Part shown: one piece after another, positions 715 through 9,463 of the stretch
How positions within the stretch are numbered: position 1 is the stretch's first letter
Layout: each line of letters starts with the position of its first letter
Assembly: GCA_902605755.1 (NCBI GenBank)
Contig: CACLDR010000011.1
Coordinates: 1-47,304 of the forward strand
DNA length: 47,304 bases
Direction: 5' to 3'
Origin: an uncultured Marinoscillum sp.
GTDB taxonomy: Bacteria; Bacteroidota; Bacteroidia; Cytophagales; Cyclobacteriaceae
Program-made: the position numbers and the translations under genes
The notes under the pieces: model-generated
The model's database searches: none
Seen by the model: the letters and a program-made list of their open reading frames with translations, nothing else
What the model was told of the DNA's origin: nothing

Positions 715-3336
715 CTACTTTTTAATAACTGGATGAATTATTTCACCCTGAACTGAATTTATTTTAATTAAATAAACTCCTTTTGGCATGTCAGTCATAT
801 CTACACTAAAATCTTTAGAGGTTATCTCAAAAGATTTAATATTAACTCCTGATAAGGAATAAACGCTCACATTTTTCAACGTTGCTATTTCAGATTTAAC
901 ATTTACTTTATCTGCTGTAGGATTAGGATAGAAAGAAATATTCACATTCTTATCCAGTGCTGTTAAAGAAGTAATAGTCAATGTGAAAGAAGCTTTGGCA
1001 ACATTATTATCAACATCAACAGCCTCAATAATAACTTCTATCGAACCTATATTAGCTGATGAAGGTGTTCCAACCAATTGCTGCGTTGTTCGTGTGAAAG
1101 TCAACCAAGCAGGTAATGCTGATCCATCAGCTTGCTTTGCTCTGTACTGAACAATGTCATCATTAGCATCAGTAAATAGACTACTCGCATCAAAACTATA
1201 CTCAGCTCCAACGCTTGCAGTTTGAGCATCAACACTTGCTGCCGTAGGAGCTGTAACCGTACCTGATCCTTTGAAGAACCATGAGCTACCGGAACGATCA
1301 CCCAAGAGCATATCTTGAACTCCATCTCCATTTAGATCTCCAAAAACAGGAGAAGGATTTGCAACTACTGTAATTCCTCCAAAAGGATTGAGATCTCCAC
1401 GTTTGGTAAAAGTTTGGTCGCCATTATTCATGTAATATTCAACTCGATCGTCTTTACCAATAAACATATCAAGGTCACCATCCTGATCAAGATCATATGC
1501 ATCATGCCATATCTTATTTCCACCAAGATCTTCATCATCAAAGGGTCCCGCAACCTCTGCTAAAACCCCTGCTCCATCATTTTCAAAATACTTCAGCTTC
1601 CCATCCTTATTTCCTACAAAACTGTCAAGATCCCCATCTCCATCTAAATCGATGAAAGTAATAGTTTCATTATCAACTGTTTTGTAATTTAAGAAAGGAT
1701 TCTTGGAAGTAAATGTTTCATCTGTCCAAGTACCATCTTGGGCATTTTCATAATAATGAATGATGGTATCATTTTCAGTTCCAACAAATAAATCTCCATA
1801 CATATCACCGTTCCAATCAACCCACGTAGGTGAAAAGGCTGAAGCTGTGGCGGTATCAGCACCATCAATAATATCGACTCCACCTATACTTGAGCTTACA
1901 TCATCTAATGGATTACCAGCACCAACCTTCTCCGCGAACTTTCCAGTACCATCATTTTCAAAATATGTCAAAGCATCACCTTTCGACATCACAACGTCCA
2001 AATCACCATCTTCATCAACATCCGCGATTGCTGAACCTATATTTGAATTCGTAATATCTGCTATCCCTAGATTATTGGCTGGAATCCACTTAAAAGTACC
2101 ATCTCCATTATTTTCAAAATATGTTAGTGGTCCATTCAAGAATCCCATAGGCATATCTAAGTCTCCATCTCCATCCAAATCCACAAATATTGGTGTTACA
2201 CTATCAAAACCTTCTGAATGGTAGCTCGACAAATCTGAAAATGGGTTATTTACAGTGGTGTCTTGTGCAAATGATGGTTCAGTTGCGGATCCTGTATTAA
2301 CATACATCACTATTGCCCCATCTTTGTTGCCAACATAAGCATCTAAATCACCATCACCATCAAGATCAGCAAAAGCAGGAGCCGCTTCGTCCCCTGCATC
2401 CAAATAACCATATTCTTCAATTAAATTTCCTAAGCTATCAGTTTTTTGGTAGCTAAAAGGACTACTTAATTGCCAAGAGTACTGTTCTTTTAATACTCCC
2501 TCCTCATTCTTAAAGTATCTTAATTCTCCGTTCCCCTTACCTATAACAGCATCTAAATCACCATCCGCGTCTAGATCTGCAAAAACAGGCTTTGATTTCT
2601 CGCCATCTGCAACGTAACGTCCAGTCCAAAATTTAGTAGTATCCTGACCATTATTAGTTATCGTATCTTTCATCTCTTTCTTGTAAAAGGATGTCCCTAA
2701 AAACGGATTATTCGCTGTATCGTAAGCAAACGTACCAGCTTCATTTCTAAAATAATGAATCAACCCCTTTTCTTCACCTACAAAAAGGTCGTGGTCTCCA
2801 TCCCCATCAAAATCTGCGAAAGCTGGGGCCGAATACATACCATCACTTCCTTCGTTCTTATCTAATCCGTGTGCAGTTGAATCATAAAGGTTTTTGAACA
2901 ATCCCACTATTGCGTGATCTTTGTTCCTTTTAAATTTGCCGTCGGCATTTTCATAGACAAAAGCGCCCAGTCCAGGATATCTTTCGCCAATCACCAAATC
3001 AAGATCTCCGTCACCGTCAATATCACCAAATGCGGGTGCAGAGTAATTTTCGGCATGTGCTGAACCCAAAGGTCTTTTGGTATCAAGTGCAAAACTTGTC
3101 TGGGCGCTAGACTCCATGGGAGCTAAAACCAATGCTAGTGAGGCAAGACTGCCGGCGGCGGCAAGTTTCAAAGCTCTTCCCAAATCGTTTATTCTATCAT
3201 AAAGCTTTCGCAATCTTTTTACAAAAACATCAATCCTTCTTTTATGAAAGGATAATCGTTTGGCATTATCAATTTTTCTTTGGTACTTGTTATAACGCTT
3301 AACTAGCTTGTTGTAATAAAGTATTTGTCTTTTCAT
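715..3336 (-). CDS. Secreted FG-GAP/VCBS-repeat protein with cadherin/He_PIG-like domain and T9SS type A sorting domain
   Basis: About ten FxDxDGDGDLDxxxG repeats (e.g. PAFGDIDGDGDLDLVIGE, PAFADLDGDGDLDAYVGN), an Ig/cadherin-like stretch (QTASVGAEYSFDASSLFTDAN...LTFTRTTQQLVGTPSS), and a C-terminal sorting tail (NISFYPNPTADKVNV...MPKGVYLIKINS..). Confidence 0.92.
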   Translation of the reverse strand: MKRQILYYNKLVKRYNKYQRKIDNAKRLSFHKRRIDVFVKRLRKLYDRINDLGRALKLAAAGSLASLALVLAPMESSAQTSFALDTKRPLGSAHAENYSAPAFGDIDGDGDLDLVIGERYPGLGAFVYENADGKFKRNKDHAIVGLFKNLYDSTAHGLDKNEGSDGMYSAPAFADFDGDGDHDLFVGEEKGLIHYFRNEAGTFAYDTANNPFLGTSFYKKEMKDTITNNGQDTTKFWTGRYVADGEKSKPVFADLDADGDLDAVIGKGNGELRYFKNEEGVLKEQYSWQLSSPFSYQKTDSLGNLIEEYGYLDAGDEAAPAFADLDGDGDLDAYVGNKDGAIVMYVNTGSATEPSFAQDTTVNNPFSDLSSYHSEGFDSVTPIFVDLDGDGDLDMPMGFLNGPLTYFENNGDGTFKWIPANNLGIADITNSNIGSAIADVDEDGDLDVVMSKGDALTYFENDGTGKFAEKVGAGNPLDDVSSSIGGVDIIDGADTATASAFSPTWVDWNGDMYGDLFVGTENDTIIHYYENAQDGTWTDETFTSKNPFLNYKTVDNETITFIDLDGDGDLDSFVGNKDGKLKYFENDGAGVLAEVAGPFDDEDLGGNKIWHDAYDLDQDGDLDMFIGKDDRVEYYMNNGDQTFTKRGDLNPFGGITVVANPSPVFGDLNGDGVQDMLLGDRSGSSWFFKGSGTVTAPTAASVDAQTASVGAEYSFDASSLFTDANDDIVQYRAKQADGSALPAWLTFTRTTQQLVGTPSSANIGSIEVIIEAVDVDNNVAKASFTLTITSLTALDKNVNISFYPNPTADKVNVKSEIATLKNVSVYSLSGVNIKSFEITSKDFSVDMTDMPKGVYLIKINSVQGEIIHPVIKK

Positions 3337-3999: not shown

Positions 4000-4560
4000 T
4001 TAACTTACTCTGGTTGTTATATCTCGAAAATAAGGTTCAAGATCCAAAAATATTTTTTTAGTTGCTATTCTTAGTTGATTTTCTATTGTTTTAGGGGTCA
4101 AACCTAGGATTCTGGCAGCCTCTTTATATGAACGCCCCTTATTTCTGACTAGTTCAAAAATAGATTTACATCGAAGTGGTAATTTTTTTATAGATAACTC
4201 AATCAACACTTTGAGCTCATCAAGCTCGTAGATTTGATCAGGGCCCATTTCATAATGATTCAACATTTGCTCATCTAACGAAATAAAATGTTTGTTCCCT
4301 CTCTTTCTGATATGATCTAAACATAGGTTTTTAGTGCAAACAAAGAGATAGGATTCTAACTTTACTATTGGGGGAGAATTTTTTCTATTTTTCCAAAGTT
4401 TGAGAAATACGTCTTCAACAATTTCCTCTGCAAGACCTTGATCTTTTACAATGCTAAACGCAGTGGTATAAACCCATTTCGAATGCATATTAAACAACTC
4501 CTCTAATGCACTTTCGTCTTCTTTCTCGTTAATTCGTCGCAAAAGTAAATTATTAATCAT
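4000..4560 (-). CDS. ECF-type RNA polymerase sigma-70 factor
   Basis: Region 2 (LFNMHSKWVYTTAFSIVKDQGLAEEIVEDVFLKLWKNR) and region 4 HTH (LPLRCKSIFELVRNKGRSYKEAARILGLTPKTIENQLRIATKKI). Confidence 0.93.
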   Translation of the reverse strand: MINNLLLRRINEKEDESALEELFNMHSKWVYTTAFSIVKDQGLAEEIVEDVFLKLWKNRKNSPPIVKLESYLFVCTKNLCLDHIRKRGNKHFISLDEQMLNHYEMGPDQIYELDELKVLIELSIKKLPLRCKSIFELVRNKGRSYKEAARILGLTPKTIENQLRIATKKIFLDLEPYFRDITTRVS

Positions 4561-5000: not shown

Positions 5001-5645
5001 TTAGGCTAAAAAAATGAACTTATCCTCTTTTTCATTTGGAATAACTTTCAACACGTTGTTTATAGTGAGTTTAATGAGTATTTGAGAAGCTAACTGCTTA
5101 TCAATATTACTAATGGTGCAAAAAGTATTAACTGTAACTTCCTCATGATTTCCAAGATAATTTAAAAGCATTTTTTCATTTTCACCATATTCAAAAGAGG
5201 TCGAAGCCTCTCTCAAAGATAATTTTAAAATTTGTCTCATTTCTCGACTCGCTTGGATGGATCTATCCTTAAGTCTCACAAAGGAGCGACCTCGCTTGTG
5301 AAAAGGTTTTAAAAAAGCATAGTAGGGTTTCTTTTCTCCAGATTCAAATTGATAATGAAGTATCGCTCTTTTATCATCTTTAGGTATGATTTGGTATTTA
5401 TATTTAATTTTGGGCCTACACAACTCTAGCATCGCTCTCTCCATAACATAATGGGCTTCTTCAGCATCTTTTAGGCCAATAATGCTGCCATCATCGTCAA
5501 CACCTATAAACAAATGCCCCCCCTTTGAATTTGAAAAAGCAACAACTTCTCTGATAATCCTGTCGGGATGATTTGCTTTAAGCTTAAATTCAATTCTTTG
5601 GCCCTCCCCTTTTGCAATCAACTTTTGGACCTCTGTGAGTGTCAT
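5001..5645 (-). CDS. AlbA_2/Schlafen-type putative DNA-binding domain protein
   Basis: GEGQRIEFKLKANHPDRIIREVVAFSNSKGGHLFIGVDDDGSIIGL is a typical AlbA_2 (AAA_4) N-terminus; C-terminal part resembles a winged helix. Confidence 0.85.
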   Translation of the reverse strand: MTLTEVQKLIAKGEGQRIEFKLKANHPDRIIREVVAFSNSKGGHLFIGVDDDGSIIGLKDAEEAHYVMERAMLELCRPKIKYKYQIIPKDDKRAILHYQFESGEKKPYYAFLKPFHKRGRSFVRLKDRSIQASREMRQILKLSLREASTSFEYGENEKMLLNYLGNHEEVTVNTFCTISNIDKQLASQILIKLTINNVLKVIPNEKEDKFIFLA

Positions 5646-5657
5646 GTCTGCTGTATT

Positions 5658-7166
5658 TTAACTATCTTCTGGACTATGATCTTCAATATCAAGCATGCTA
5701 CTAATCAAGTCTTTGAACTGAAATCCCTCATCGAGGATGTGCTTACTCAGCACACTGTATTCTGCTAATCCGTGTAAAGCCAACTCCATTAAAAATAGCC
5801 GATAATCCTCCGATTCCTGACCATACCTTTTATTAACTAAATCAGCTAACCCTGGTATACCTTTTAGGCAGGAACTATATTCCGAATCACTTGCGTCTAA
5901 TGTTAAATCTACTAAATTACCTTTTCCGAACCATTCTGAAATAGCTTGATATGGACTCTTTTTTTTATTTTTCCTGATCTCCTCGGGATCTGGAAAAAAA
6001 TTTACAAATTGAGCTCTTATGGACTTACTGATCAAATTGGCAGCTACAATACCTGGGCCCTCTTGCTCTCCCTCATAGACCAGTTCTACTTTACCTGTTA
6101 TCCCTGGAATTACCCCGACAAAATCAGTCACTCGTATTGTTGTCTTTTCCATCCCATTCTTGATCATTCTTCGCTCAGCCGCACTGATTAAATTTTCATA
6201 AGCAGAAATAGTCAGTCTTGCTGACACACCACTCTTTGCATCGATATACTCACTTTCACGGGCTTCAAAAGCAATCTGTTCAACTAAATCCTTTACCAAA
6301 TCAAAAGACTTTACTGCTTGCTTTTGTTCTGACTCCAATCGTGCTTCTTGCTGGGTTATTTTCTTACCTACATCTATTCTTTTTGGATAATGAGTTATGA
6401 TCTGGCTATCAATTCTGTCTTTTAAAGGTGTAACTATACTCCCTCTGTTAGTATAATCTTCCGGATTTGCAGTAAATACAAATTGAACATCCAAGGGCAA
6501 TCGCAACTTGAACCCTCTTATTTGAATATCCCCCTCTTGAAGAATATTGAACAGAGCTACTTGAATTCGAGCCTGTAAATCTGGAAGCTCGTTGATCACA
6601 AAAATAGACCTATTAGAGCGTGGAATTAAACCGTAATGAATGACTCTCTGATCTGAATAAGAAAGCTTCAAACTAGCGGCCTTGATAGGATCAACATCCC
6701 CGATAATATCGGCGATAGATACGTCAGGAGTAGCTAATTTTTCAGTGTACCGCTCATTTCTATTCAACCAGGAGATTGCCGTATTATCACCCTCATCTCT
6801 TAGCTTACTCAAAGCGTAATGGGAAATCGGTCTAAGTGGATCATCATTGAGTTCTGACCCTTGGACAATAGGTATCCATTCGTCAAGTAAAAATAACATC
6901 ATCCGAGCTATTCGGGTTTTGGCTTGTCCCCGAAGTCCGAGAAAATTAATATTGTGTTGGGCCAAAATTGCCCTTTCAATATCTGGAATTACCGTATGTT
7001 CATAGCCCCATATCCCCTTAAAAACTGAATCTCCATTTTTTAAAGATTTTAACAAATTTTTTCTCAGCTCTTCTTTAATACCAATCGAAGCATAACCTGC
7101 CGCCTTCAACTCTTTTAATGTTTTAATCGATAGTAATTTTTTTTCTGATAGATCGTAATAGGTCAT
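5658..7166 (-). CDS. MoxR/magnesium-chelatase ChlI-like AAA ATPase
   Basis: INFLGLRGQAKTRIARMML (P-loop-like), RSIFVINELPDLQARIQVALFNILQEGDIQIRGFKLRLPLDVQFVFTANPEDYTNRGSIVTPLKDRIDSQI (Walker B/sensor region typical of this clade). Confidence 0.88.
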   Translation of the reverse strand: MTYYDLSEKKLLSIKTLKELKAAGYASIGIKEELRKNLLKSLKNGDSVFKGIWGYEHTVIPDIERAILAQHNINFLGLRGQAKTRIARMMLFLLDEWIPIVQGSELNDDPLRPISHYALSKLRDEGDNTAISWLNRNERYTEKLATPDVSIADIIGDVDPIKAASLKLSYSDQRVIHYGLIPRSNRSIFVINELPDLQARIQVALFNILQEGDIQIRGFKLRLPLDVQFVFTANPEDYTNRGSIVTPLKDRIDSQIITHYPKRIDVGKKITQQEARLESEQKQAVKSFDLVKDLVEQIAFEARESEYIDAKSGVSARLTISAYENLISAAERRMIKNGMEKTTIRVTDFVGVIPGITGKVELVYEGEQEGPGIVAANLISKSIRAQFVNFFPDPEEIRKNKKKSPYQAISEWFGKGNLVDLTLDASDSEYSSCLKGIPGLADLVNKRYGQESEDYRLFLMELALHGLAEYSVLSKHILDEGFQFKDLISSMLDIEDHSPEDS

Positions 7167-7171
7167 ATGAA

Positions 7172-8269
7172 CTAGAAATTTTTTCTTCGGTTATTTTTAT
7201 AGTCTTGAAAAATAAGATGTCCCAGACCTTCTAAGTTACTATAATAGGCGTTGCCATTATTTATTTTTGTAAACTCTTGTACAAACTGCTTTAAGTAAGG
7301 GTCTGAAGCAATCATAAAAGTAGTAATAGGTATCTGGTTTCTTCTACACTGTGCCGCTAAGTTGAAAGTTTTATTCATTATTTTAGGATCTAAACCAAAA
7401 CTATTTTTATAATATTTAATACCCACCTTCATACATGTTGGTTTACCATCAGTAATCATGAAAATTTGTTTATTTTTATTTTTTTTACGCTTAAGAATAT
7501 CTGTTGCAAGCTCCAAACCCGCGATCGTATTAGTATGATAAGGACCCACTTGTAGAAAAGGTAAGTCTTTGATTTCGATTTGCCATGCATCATTACCAAA
7601 TACAAGAATGTCAAGAGTATCTTTGGGATATTTTTGGGTAATTAACTCTGCTAAAGCCATGGCTACCTTTTTGGCGGGCGTGATCCGATCTTCACCATAT
7701 AAAATCATGGAATGGCTGATGTCTATCATTAAAACTGTTGAAGTTTGTGCCTTGAAATCTTTATATTGAATTTCTAAATCTCGCTCCGTCAATCTGAAGT
7801 CTTCAGCACCATTATTAATCTGTGCATTTTTTAAGCTTTCGGTCAATGCAATTTGGTCTAATGGGTCTCCAAACTGAAATCCACGGTAATCGGTAGTATT
7901 CTCATCTCCATGACCAAAATGAGGGGTTTTATGATCTCCTTTAGCCCCTTTTTTAAGTTTTCCAAAAATTTCTTTCAATGCATTTTTTCTTATTTTTTGT
8001 TCCGATTTAGGGGAAGCCTCAAAAACACCATCTTTGTTACTCGCCTTAATATAACCTTGGTCTTTTAAATCATCAACAAAATTTCCTATACCATAGTCAT
8101 TAGAAAGTAGATTGTATTGTCGATCTAAATTATTCAGCCAATTGATTGTCTCTGTGGTATCTCCCCCAGTAATAACCATCAATTGCAAAAAAATATCTAA
8201 AAGGCTTTCAAATGACCCTTTTTGAGGTATTTTTTCAGGTATATATGTAGTAAACCTATATCCAATCAT
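7172..8269 (-). CDS. vWA domain protein (MoxR partner)
   Basis: MIDAS motif DISHS in TSTVLMIDISHSMILYGEDRITPAKKVAMALAELI, downstream MITDGKPT; 5-nt gap to the MoxR-like gene. Confidence 0.9.
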   Translation of the reverse strand: MIGYRFTTYIPEKIPQKGSFESLLDIFLQLMVITGGDTTETINWLNNLDRQYNLLSNDYGIGNFVDDLKDQGYIKASNKDGVFEASPKSEQKIRKNALKEIFGKLKKGAKGDHKTPHFGHGDENTTDYRGFQFGDPLDQIALTESLKNAQINNGAEDFRLTERDLEIQYKDFKAQTSTVLMIDISHSMILYGEDRITPAKKVAMALAELITQKYPKDTLDILVFGNDAWQIEIKDLPFLQVGPYHTNTIAGLELATDILKRKKNKNKQIFMITDGKPTCMKVGIKYYKNSFGLDPKIMNKTFNLAAQCRRNQIPITTFMIASDPYLKQFVQEFTKINNGNAYYSNLEGLGHLIFQDYKNNRRKNF

Positions 8270-8338: not shown

Positions 8339-9463
8339 TTATAGCGTAATGCATGCAGCTTTGTAAGCTCTCTCATACATGGGCATGATCTCAGACAATT
8401 CGAATGATAATGCCTTATTGTAAGCTGCTGCTTTGAATTTCGGCAGATAATCTTCATTCAATACATGTAGTGTTTTTTCTGTCATATCCTCGATATCTCC
8501 TACATTACAAGTATACCCTGTAATCCCATTTTGATTTAATTCGAGCAGTCCGCCAACATTTGTACTGATAAGAGGTACTTGACAGGCCATTGCTTCAAGG
8601 GCTGCTAAACCAAAACTCTCTTTCTCAGAGGTCATAATAAACAGATCGCATACCGATAGAATTTCTTCGACATTAGACATTTTACCGAGAAACCGTATGT
8701 CTTGAATACTACAGGTCTCACGAGTCATTTTTTCCATTTCAGATCTCTCAGGACCATCACCCACTAGTAGCAACTTGACCGGCATCTTTTCGCAAACCTT
8801 ACAAAATACACTAATTACATCTTGCACCCGTTTAACCTTCCTAAAATTAGAAATATGTACCATGAGCCTTTCACCATTGGGACATATAGCCTTTTTAAAA
8901 TGATCTTTATGCTGCTTTTTAAACTTTTTAATATCGACAAAATTTGGAATCACCTTTATTTTTTTTTTGACATTAAAGAGTGAATAAGTATCACTTCTTA
9001 ACGAATTTGAAACTGCCGTAACAACATCTGATTGATTGATGGCATAAGTTATCACCGAGGCATAAGTGGCCTCTTTACCCACCAAGGTAATATCTGTACC
9101 ATGTAACGTGGTTACAATTGGAATGAAAATTCCCTTGGTTGCCAATATCTGTTTTGCCATGAGACCTGCAGATGCATGAGGAATGGCATAATGGACATGT
9201 AATAGGTCTAATTTTTCATATTCAACAACATCCACCATTCTTGCAGCCAAAGCAATCTCATAAGGAGGGTGTTCAAACAAAGGATAATCTTTAATAGATA
9301 CCTCATGGTAAAAAAGATTCTCACTCAAAAAGTCTAACCTGGTAGGCTGGGAATAGGTGATAAAGTGAATCTTGTGTCCTTTTTTGGCAAGGCCCATCCC
9401 TAACTCCGTAGCCATTACGCCACTGCCTCCAAAAGTAGGGTAACAAACAATTCCAATTTTCAT
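8339..9463 (-). CDS. bshA: N-acetyl-alpha-D-glucosaminyl L-malate synthase (bacillithiol biosynthesis)
   Basis: GT4 glycosyltransferase: MKIGIVCYPTFGGSGVMATELGMGLAKKGHKIHFITYSQPTRL..., LLHVHYAIPHA, HGTDITLVG, SEKESFGLAALEAMACQVPLISTNVGGL. Confidence 0.93.
   Translation of the reverse strand: MKIGIVCYPTFGGSGVMATELGMGLAKKGHKIHFITYSQPTRLDFLSENLFYHEVSIKDYPLFEHPPYEIALAARMVDVVEYEKLDLLHVHYAIPHASAGLMAKQILATKGIFIPIVTTLHGTDITLVGKEATYASVITYAINQSDVVTAVSNSLRSDTYSLFNVKKKIKVIPNFVDIKKFKKQHKDHFKKAICPNGERLMVHISNFRKVKRVQDVISVFCKVCEKMPVKLLLVGDGPERSEMEKMTRETCSIQDIRFLGKMSNVEEILSVCDLFIMTSEKESFGLAALEAMACQVPLISTNVGGLLELNQNGITGYTCNVGDIEDMTEKTLHVLNEDYLPKFKAAAYNKALSFELSEIMPMYERAYKAACITL

Follow-up and report, generated by a model that had tools for sequence, protein, structure and literature searches.

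Three genes on the minus strand of the window (the whole stretch of DNA analysed, 47,304 nt), which encode a vWA protein, an AAA+ ATPase and an AlbA_2 protein, probably form a transcription unit that is restricted to one family, the Cyclobacteriaceae, and that joins two independently conserved housekeeping modules, i.e., the AAA-vWA pair on the one hand and the AlbA_2 protein on the other. The respective features are the following.

8339..9463, minus strand: bshA (bacillithiol synthesis), TIGR03999 match with E 1.6e-160, conserved upstream neighbour
7172..8269, minus strand: vWA protein, 365 aa, N-terminal ~175 aa without Pfam match, followed by the vWA domain
7709..7723, minus strand: MIDAS motif DxSxS (D183, I, S185, H, S187), invariant in 14 aligned sequences
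5658..7166, minus strand: AAA+ ATPase, 502 aa, ChlI-like, single copy (Pfam and survey of relatives)
6915..6938, minus strand: Walker A motif GLRGQAKT, invariant in 16 aligned sequences
6588..6602, minus strand: Walker B motif FVINE (N for the usual D before the catalytic E), invariant in 16 aligned sequences
5001..5645, minus strand: AlbA_2 (Schlafen-type) and winged-helix protein, 214 aa (Pfam, alignment and structure model)
5583..5606, minus strand: Schlafen ribonuclease motif ExxxxExK (E14, E19, K21), based on 50 orthologs
5004..5183, minus strand: C-terminal winged helix of the AlbA_2 protein (weak MarR_2 match, helices and strands of the AF2 model, ArsR/MarR structure matches)

In transcription order, the open reading frames of the window are vWA (8269-7172), AAA+ (7166-5658) and AlbA_2 with winged helix (5645-5001), with intergenic gaps of 5 nt (vWA/AAA) and 12 nt (AAA/AlbA_2). 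These are the exact coordinates of the three same-strand genes and of the two gaps given by the first-pass annotation. All three ORFs are intact and the alignments show them to be kept as proteins in relatives; they are thus not chance ORFs. We take the cluster to be real and family-specific and, judged from its sequence, probably an operon from which vWA, AAA and AlbA_2 would be co-transcribed. A promoter and terminator scan of the cluster gave results no better than those for shuffled sequences. A literature search combining MoxR, von Willebrand and AlbA_2 returned no paper. Further downstream of the trio, the window holds a gene for an ECF sigma factor (4000-4560), found at the same position in a second locus of the genus, as well as a gene for an FG-GAP repeat protein (715-3336) that carries a sorting tail of the Por (type IX) secretion system and is probably secreted.

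Concerning the AAA+ ATPase, the Pfam matches (AAA_5, Mg_chelatase, Sigma54_activat) are weak yet over the cut-off, and beside Walker A and Walker B also the sensor 1 motif (FTANPED) is invariant. The unusual N-E of Walker B, which replaces D-E, is likewise present in the inspected relatives from Thermomicrobium (Thermomicrobiota) and Tsukamurella (Actinomycetota). The protein had been described as ChlI/MoxR-like. Its weak profile matches agree with the first half of this name, but an assignment to MoxR proper was rejected, because PF07726 (MoxR family) is absent among its Pfam matches at E<=0.01. The genome does contain PF07726 genes, but these are distinct and lie on other contigs.

The profile similarities also raise the question whether the AAA-vWA pair is the motor of a magnesium or cobalt chelatase (ChlI/ChlD or CobS/CobT type). 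Weak matches to the Mg_chelatase, BchD-ChlD and Cob-chelat-sub profiles point in this direction, as does the magnesium chelatase annotation that a relative carries in mycobacteria (PMC10774309), but all profile scores are far under the equivalog cut-offs. Moreover, the chelating subunit CobN/ChlH (PF02514) was found in 7/59 relatives and in none of the 10 genomes sampled in the genus; the 52 relatives that lack it mostly possess the AAA gene. A chelatase role was therefore rejected after this survey, and we regard it as hardly probable at all. Names such as "magnesium chelatase" or "sigma-54 regulator", under which this widespread AAA-vWA motor is found, are misleading.

The vWA protein matches VWA_2 (E 1.5e-8) and ends at residue 365, right behind the vWA domain, without any further Pfam domain. 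All residues of the MIDAS pattern DxSxS...T...D (D183, S185, S187, T248, D274) are invariant, so that the MIDAS is indeed intact, as had been proposed from the sequence. A search of solved structures with the vWA profile found no relative by sequence, and the predicted structure (pLDDT 57.8) is too poor for use.

The AAA gene is present as a single copy in 46/59 relatives and in 190/297 genomes sampled over the phylum; together with vWA it forms a single-copy chromosomal pair. In most Bacteroidota loci, vWA is located directly upstream of AAA. Here, the simple gene caller detected vWA at 60/79 loci and missed it in some GC-rich ones, and we thus claim no absence of vWA for the latter. The pair is also found beyond the phylum, since AAA relatives with 41-50% identity adjoin vWA genes in Thermomicrobium and Tsukamurella. 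In five Sphingobacteriaceae loci, vWA-AAA is followed by genes for a metallophosphatase and a UbiA-like membrane protein in place of AlbA_2. One Cytophagales-type AAA gene was found in a MAG titled Thalassovita sp., which probably reflects contamination or a mislabelled bin.

By analogy to NorQ-NorD, RavA-ViaA and ChlI-ChlD, we consider the pair an ancient remodelling machine, in which ATP use by the AAA ring would drive movement of the vWA protein, while the MIDAS of the latter may grip a client. The idea of a MoxR-vWA remodelling module from the first-pass annotation hence remains plausible as far as a remodelling pair is concerned, but not with respect to MoxR in the strict sense.

For the AlbA_2 protein, the SLFN_AlbA_2 match (PF04326) is strong (E 1.2e-21; 77.9 bits vs. 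a cut-off of 25.3). Within the ExxxxExK motif, E14 and K21 are invariant among the 50 orthologs and E19 nearly so. The motif was defined for SLFN14, for which it is essential for RNase activity (PMC12215978). The AF2 model has a mean pLDDT of 94.8, and a Foldseek search with it yields matches to SLFN11/14/12/13 as well as to the rSAMD9 tRNase. Sequence and model suggest a Schlafen-type RNase, while the motif, possibly a general feature of AlbA_2 proteins, is by itself no proof of catalysis. The protein had been termed an AlbA_2/Schlafen-type putative nucleic-acid-binding protein; the type is right, but the second part understates the case given the kept motif of the RNase active site.

AlbA_2 genes are present in 203/297 genomes of the phylum, nearly always as a single copy. 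Outside the arrangement studied here, they adjoin plsY-gpsA (with or without parC/parE), secA/glnB, uvrB, lipA/lipB or PhoH genes, where these names are based on sequence inspection and only PhoH was checked with Pfam. Other lineages of the phylum have clusters of plsY, gpsA and AlbA_2, behind which several genomes carry the topoisomerase subunit genes parC/parE. Three loci show a compact run of secA, glnB (P-II), a gene encoding a probable ~750-aa lipoprotein, and AlbA_2. We thus view the second module as a stand-alone core protein with AlbA_2 domain, winged helix and a putative metal-dependent RNase active site of Schlafen type, which might act on structured RNA (tRNA, rRNA, mRNA) by cutting or binding it, as part of ordinary RNA turnover or of translation control.

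The winged helix with its ArsR/MarR-like structural matches would also fit a non-catalytic DNA-binding regulator of its own operon. The ExxxxExK motif is kept, though, and AlbA_2 is a core gene mostly sited in other operons, which excludes a role confined to this one. We therefore consider such a regulator improbable.

The central question is how tightly both modules, i.e., the AAA-vWA pair and AlbA_2, are linked. AlbA_2 is located directly downstream of AAA in 16/23 Cyclobacteriaceae-type genera that have both genes. The same holds for 14 of the 79 named loci, with no AlbA_2 within the flanking DNA (up to 10 kb) of the remaining ones. Outside the family, no adjacent AAA and AlbA_2 genes were seen when inspecting by eye the gene positions listed in the phylum surveys. 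On genome level, 144 of the 297 genomes have both genes, 46 only AAA, 59 only AlbA_2, and 48 neither. This co-occurrence exceeds random expectation (odds ratio 2.5; Fisher p 4e-4), with shared ancestry ignored. The suggestion to check whether AlbA_2 is the constant third gene thus has a twofold answer: within the Cyclobacteriaceae it mostly is, while elsewhere each partner also occurs without the other.

The usual layout in the family is bshA, a fatty-acid hydroxylase, vWA, AAA, AlbA_2 and PIN-PhoH, and bshA is found upstream of vWA in many Cyclobacteriaceae. In the window and the second locus of the genus, neither the hydroxylase nor PhoH is present at this position. In eight loci, a PIN-PhoH gene (~445 aa; PF02562 and PF13638) follows AlbA_2 at ~+2.4 kb from AAA, such that many Cyclobacteriaceae encode two consecutive proteins with a predicted action on RNA. 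PIN-PhoH remains with AlbA_2 also where vWA-AAA is missing or located elsewhere (L141, L143); in L141, bshA, AlbA_2 and PhoH are kept with no vWA-AAA in between.

Across 12 loci, AAA, vWA, AlbA_2 and BshA show correlated pairwise distances (r 0.61-0.78; Mantel p 0.0005), as expected under vertical inheritance; the rate of evolution of AlbA_2 is roughly double. The AAA tree groups largely by taxonomic family. Mapped onto it, the adjacency of AAA and AlbA_2 requires at least 5 changes, which is compatible with, though no proof of, one gain and several losses. With respect to the question of patchy vs. vertically conserved genes, the single-copy core distribution and the family-consistent AAA tree speak for the latter.

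An adjacency in 16/23 genera is beyond what neutral accident might give, and there could thus be a functional tie between motor and RNase, which we consider possible. In one such reading, the three proteins of the Cyclobacteriaceae would act in the stress response as a ternary complex, in which the AlbA_2 RNase is loaded, activated or held back by the AAA-vWA motor, e.g., at ribosomes or on tRNA. The close spacing and the constant order vWA-AAA-AlbA_2 in the 16 genera, the co-inheritance inside the family (Mantel r 0.67-0.77) and the PIN-PhoH neighbour, another predicted RNA-acting protein in many relatives, are consistent with such a complex. On the other hand, AAA-vWA and AlbA_2 are each kept separately over the phylum, AlbA_2 stays with PhoH in the loci L141 and L143 introduced above, and the correlation of AlbA_2 with BshA is nearly as good (r 0.61). 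We therefore judge the complex to be somewhat unlikely. It is more doubtful still that a pan-bacterial AAA-vWA motor was wired to a core Schlafen-family RNase in this family such that RNA cleavage would be under the control of ATP-driven remodelling and serve as a switch for translation or stress.

The first-pass annotation had further considered the third gene a possible stress or defence effector, or a regulator, and had pointed to ternary conflict systems built on MoxR-vWA pairs. An RNase effector in an anti-phage or conflict system of this kind would have precedents, since MoxR-vWA ternary systems exist (PMC7159879) and the literature on BREX-linked systems describes Schlafen RNases as effectors (PMC12839542). 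Nevertheless, the conflict and defence reading found no support: the linkage is found in one family only, the modules are separable, the genes are single copy, broadly conserved, located among core neighbours and show signs of vertical inheritance, and none of the PADLOC models fits. Neither AAA nor AlbA_2 has relatives in 50,697 phage records. The plasmid search gave nothing specific, with the listed AlbA_2 matches being 26-50% identical and mostly partial. Furthermore, according to Pfam the vWA protein carries no C-terminal effector domain, and no VMAP-C or iSTAND partner was seen; for VMAP-C, 0/39 relatives match the profile, which is equally silent in the control genomes. Neither a patchy or mobile spread nor defence-gene neighbours were observed. 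Defence was thus rejected as unlikely, and for a conflict system with RNase effector we see a very small probability.

The preferred reading therefore remains that of two housekeeping modules sharing a transcription unit: core, inherited genes that stand side by side in one family only are probably housekeeping genes rather than a new anti-virus system. This supports the earlier argument that the core-genome surroundings speak for a housekeeping role. Both modules belong to the genes that are widely conserved in the Bacteroidota, and we found no experimentally established function for either. A family with a shared operon is a concrete place to test a functional tie. In addition, a conserved single-copy candidate for a Schlafen-type RNase suggests that this domain can be a housekeeping and not only an immune one.

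Compared to known systems, the ternary conflict systems (VMAP, iSTAND; PMC7159879) share the combination of AAA, vWA and a third gene, but the vWA protein studied here carries no effector domains and the distribution of the genes is core instead of patchy; the main text of PMC7159879 mentions neither AlbA nor Schlafen. The chelatase motors ChlI/ChlD and CobS/CobT resemble the pair by weak profile similarity of AAA and vWA, while the chelating subunit is missing from the genus studied here. The Schlafen and SAMD9 RNase domains and bacterial AlbA_2 proteins share ExxxxExK and the predicted fold; in contrast to the Schlafen/SAMD9 RNases, the candidate RNase here consists of a single AlbA_2 domain and a winged helix, without helicase or kinase-like parts.

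A further counterpart is the adjacent AAA-vWA pair of mycobacteria, i.e., Rv0958/MSMEG_5512 (AAA) and Rv0959/MSMEG_5511 (vWA), which we compared via the Tsukamurella relative. The AAA protein of the latter is 41% identical and encoded near purN/purH. Its surroundings (purN-purH-AAA-vWA) presumably match Rv0956-Rv0959 of M. tuberculosis. The gene order of the Tsukamurella/mycobacterial pair is reversed and no AlbA_2 lies alongside; the Tsukamurella vWA protein is about twice as long as the one studied here. The literature names Rv0958/MSMEG_5512 a magnesium chelatase, for which we found no chelatase evidence there. MSMEG_5512 shows no DNA association (PMC7092591), and both MSMEG_5512 and MSMEG_5511 are part of the ClpC1 interactome (PMC10433963). 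Finally, the MoxR AAA+/vWA chaperones NorQ-NorD and RavA-ViaA also combine an AAA+ ring with a separate, MIDAS-bearing vWA partner (PMC13036017), from which the AAA protein studied here differs in that it has no detectable PF07726 membership.
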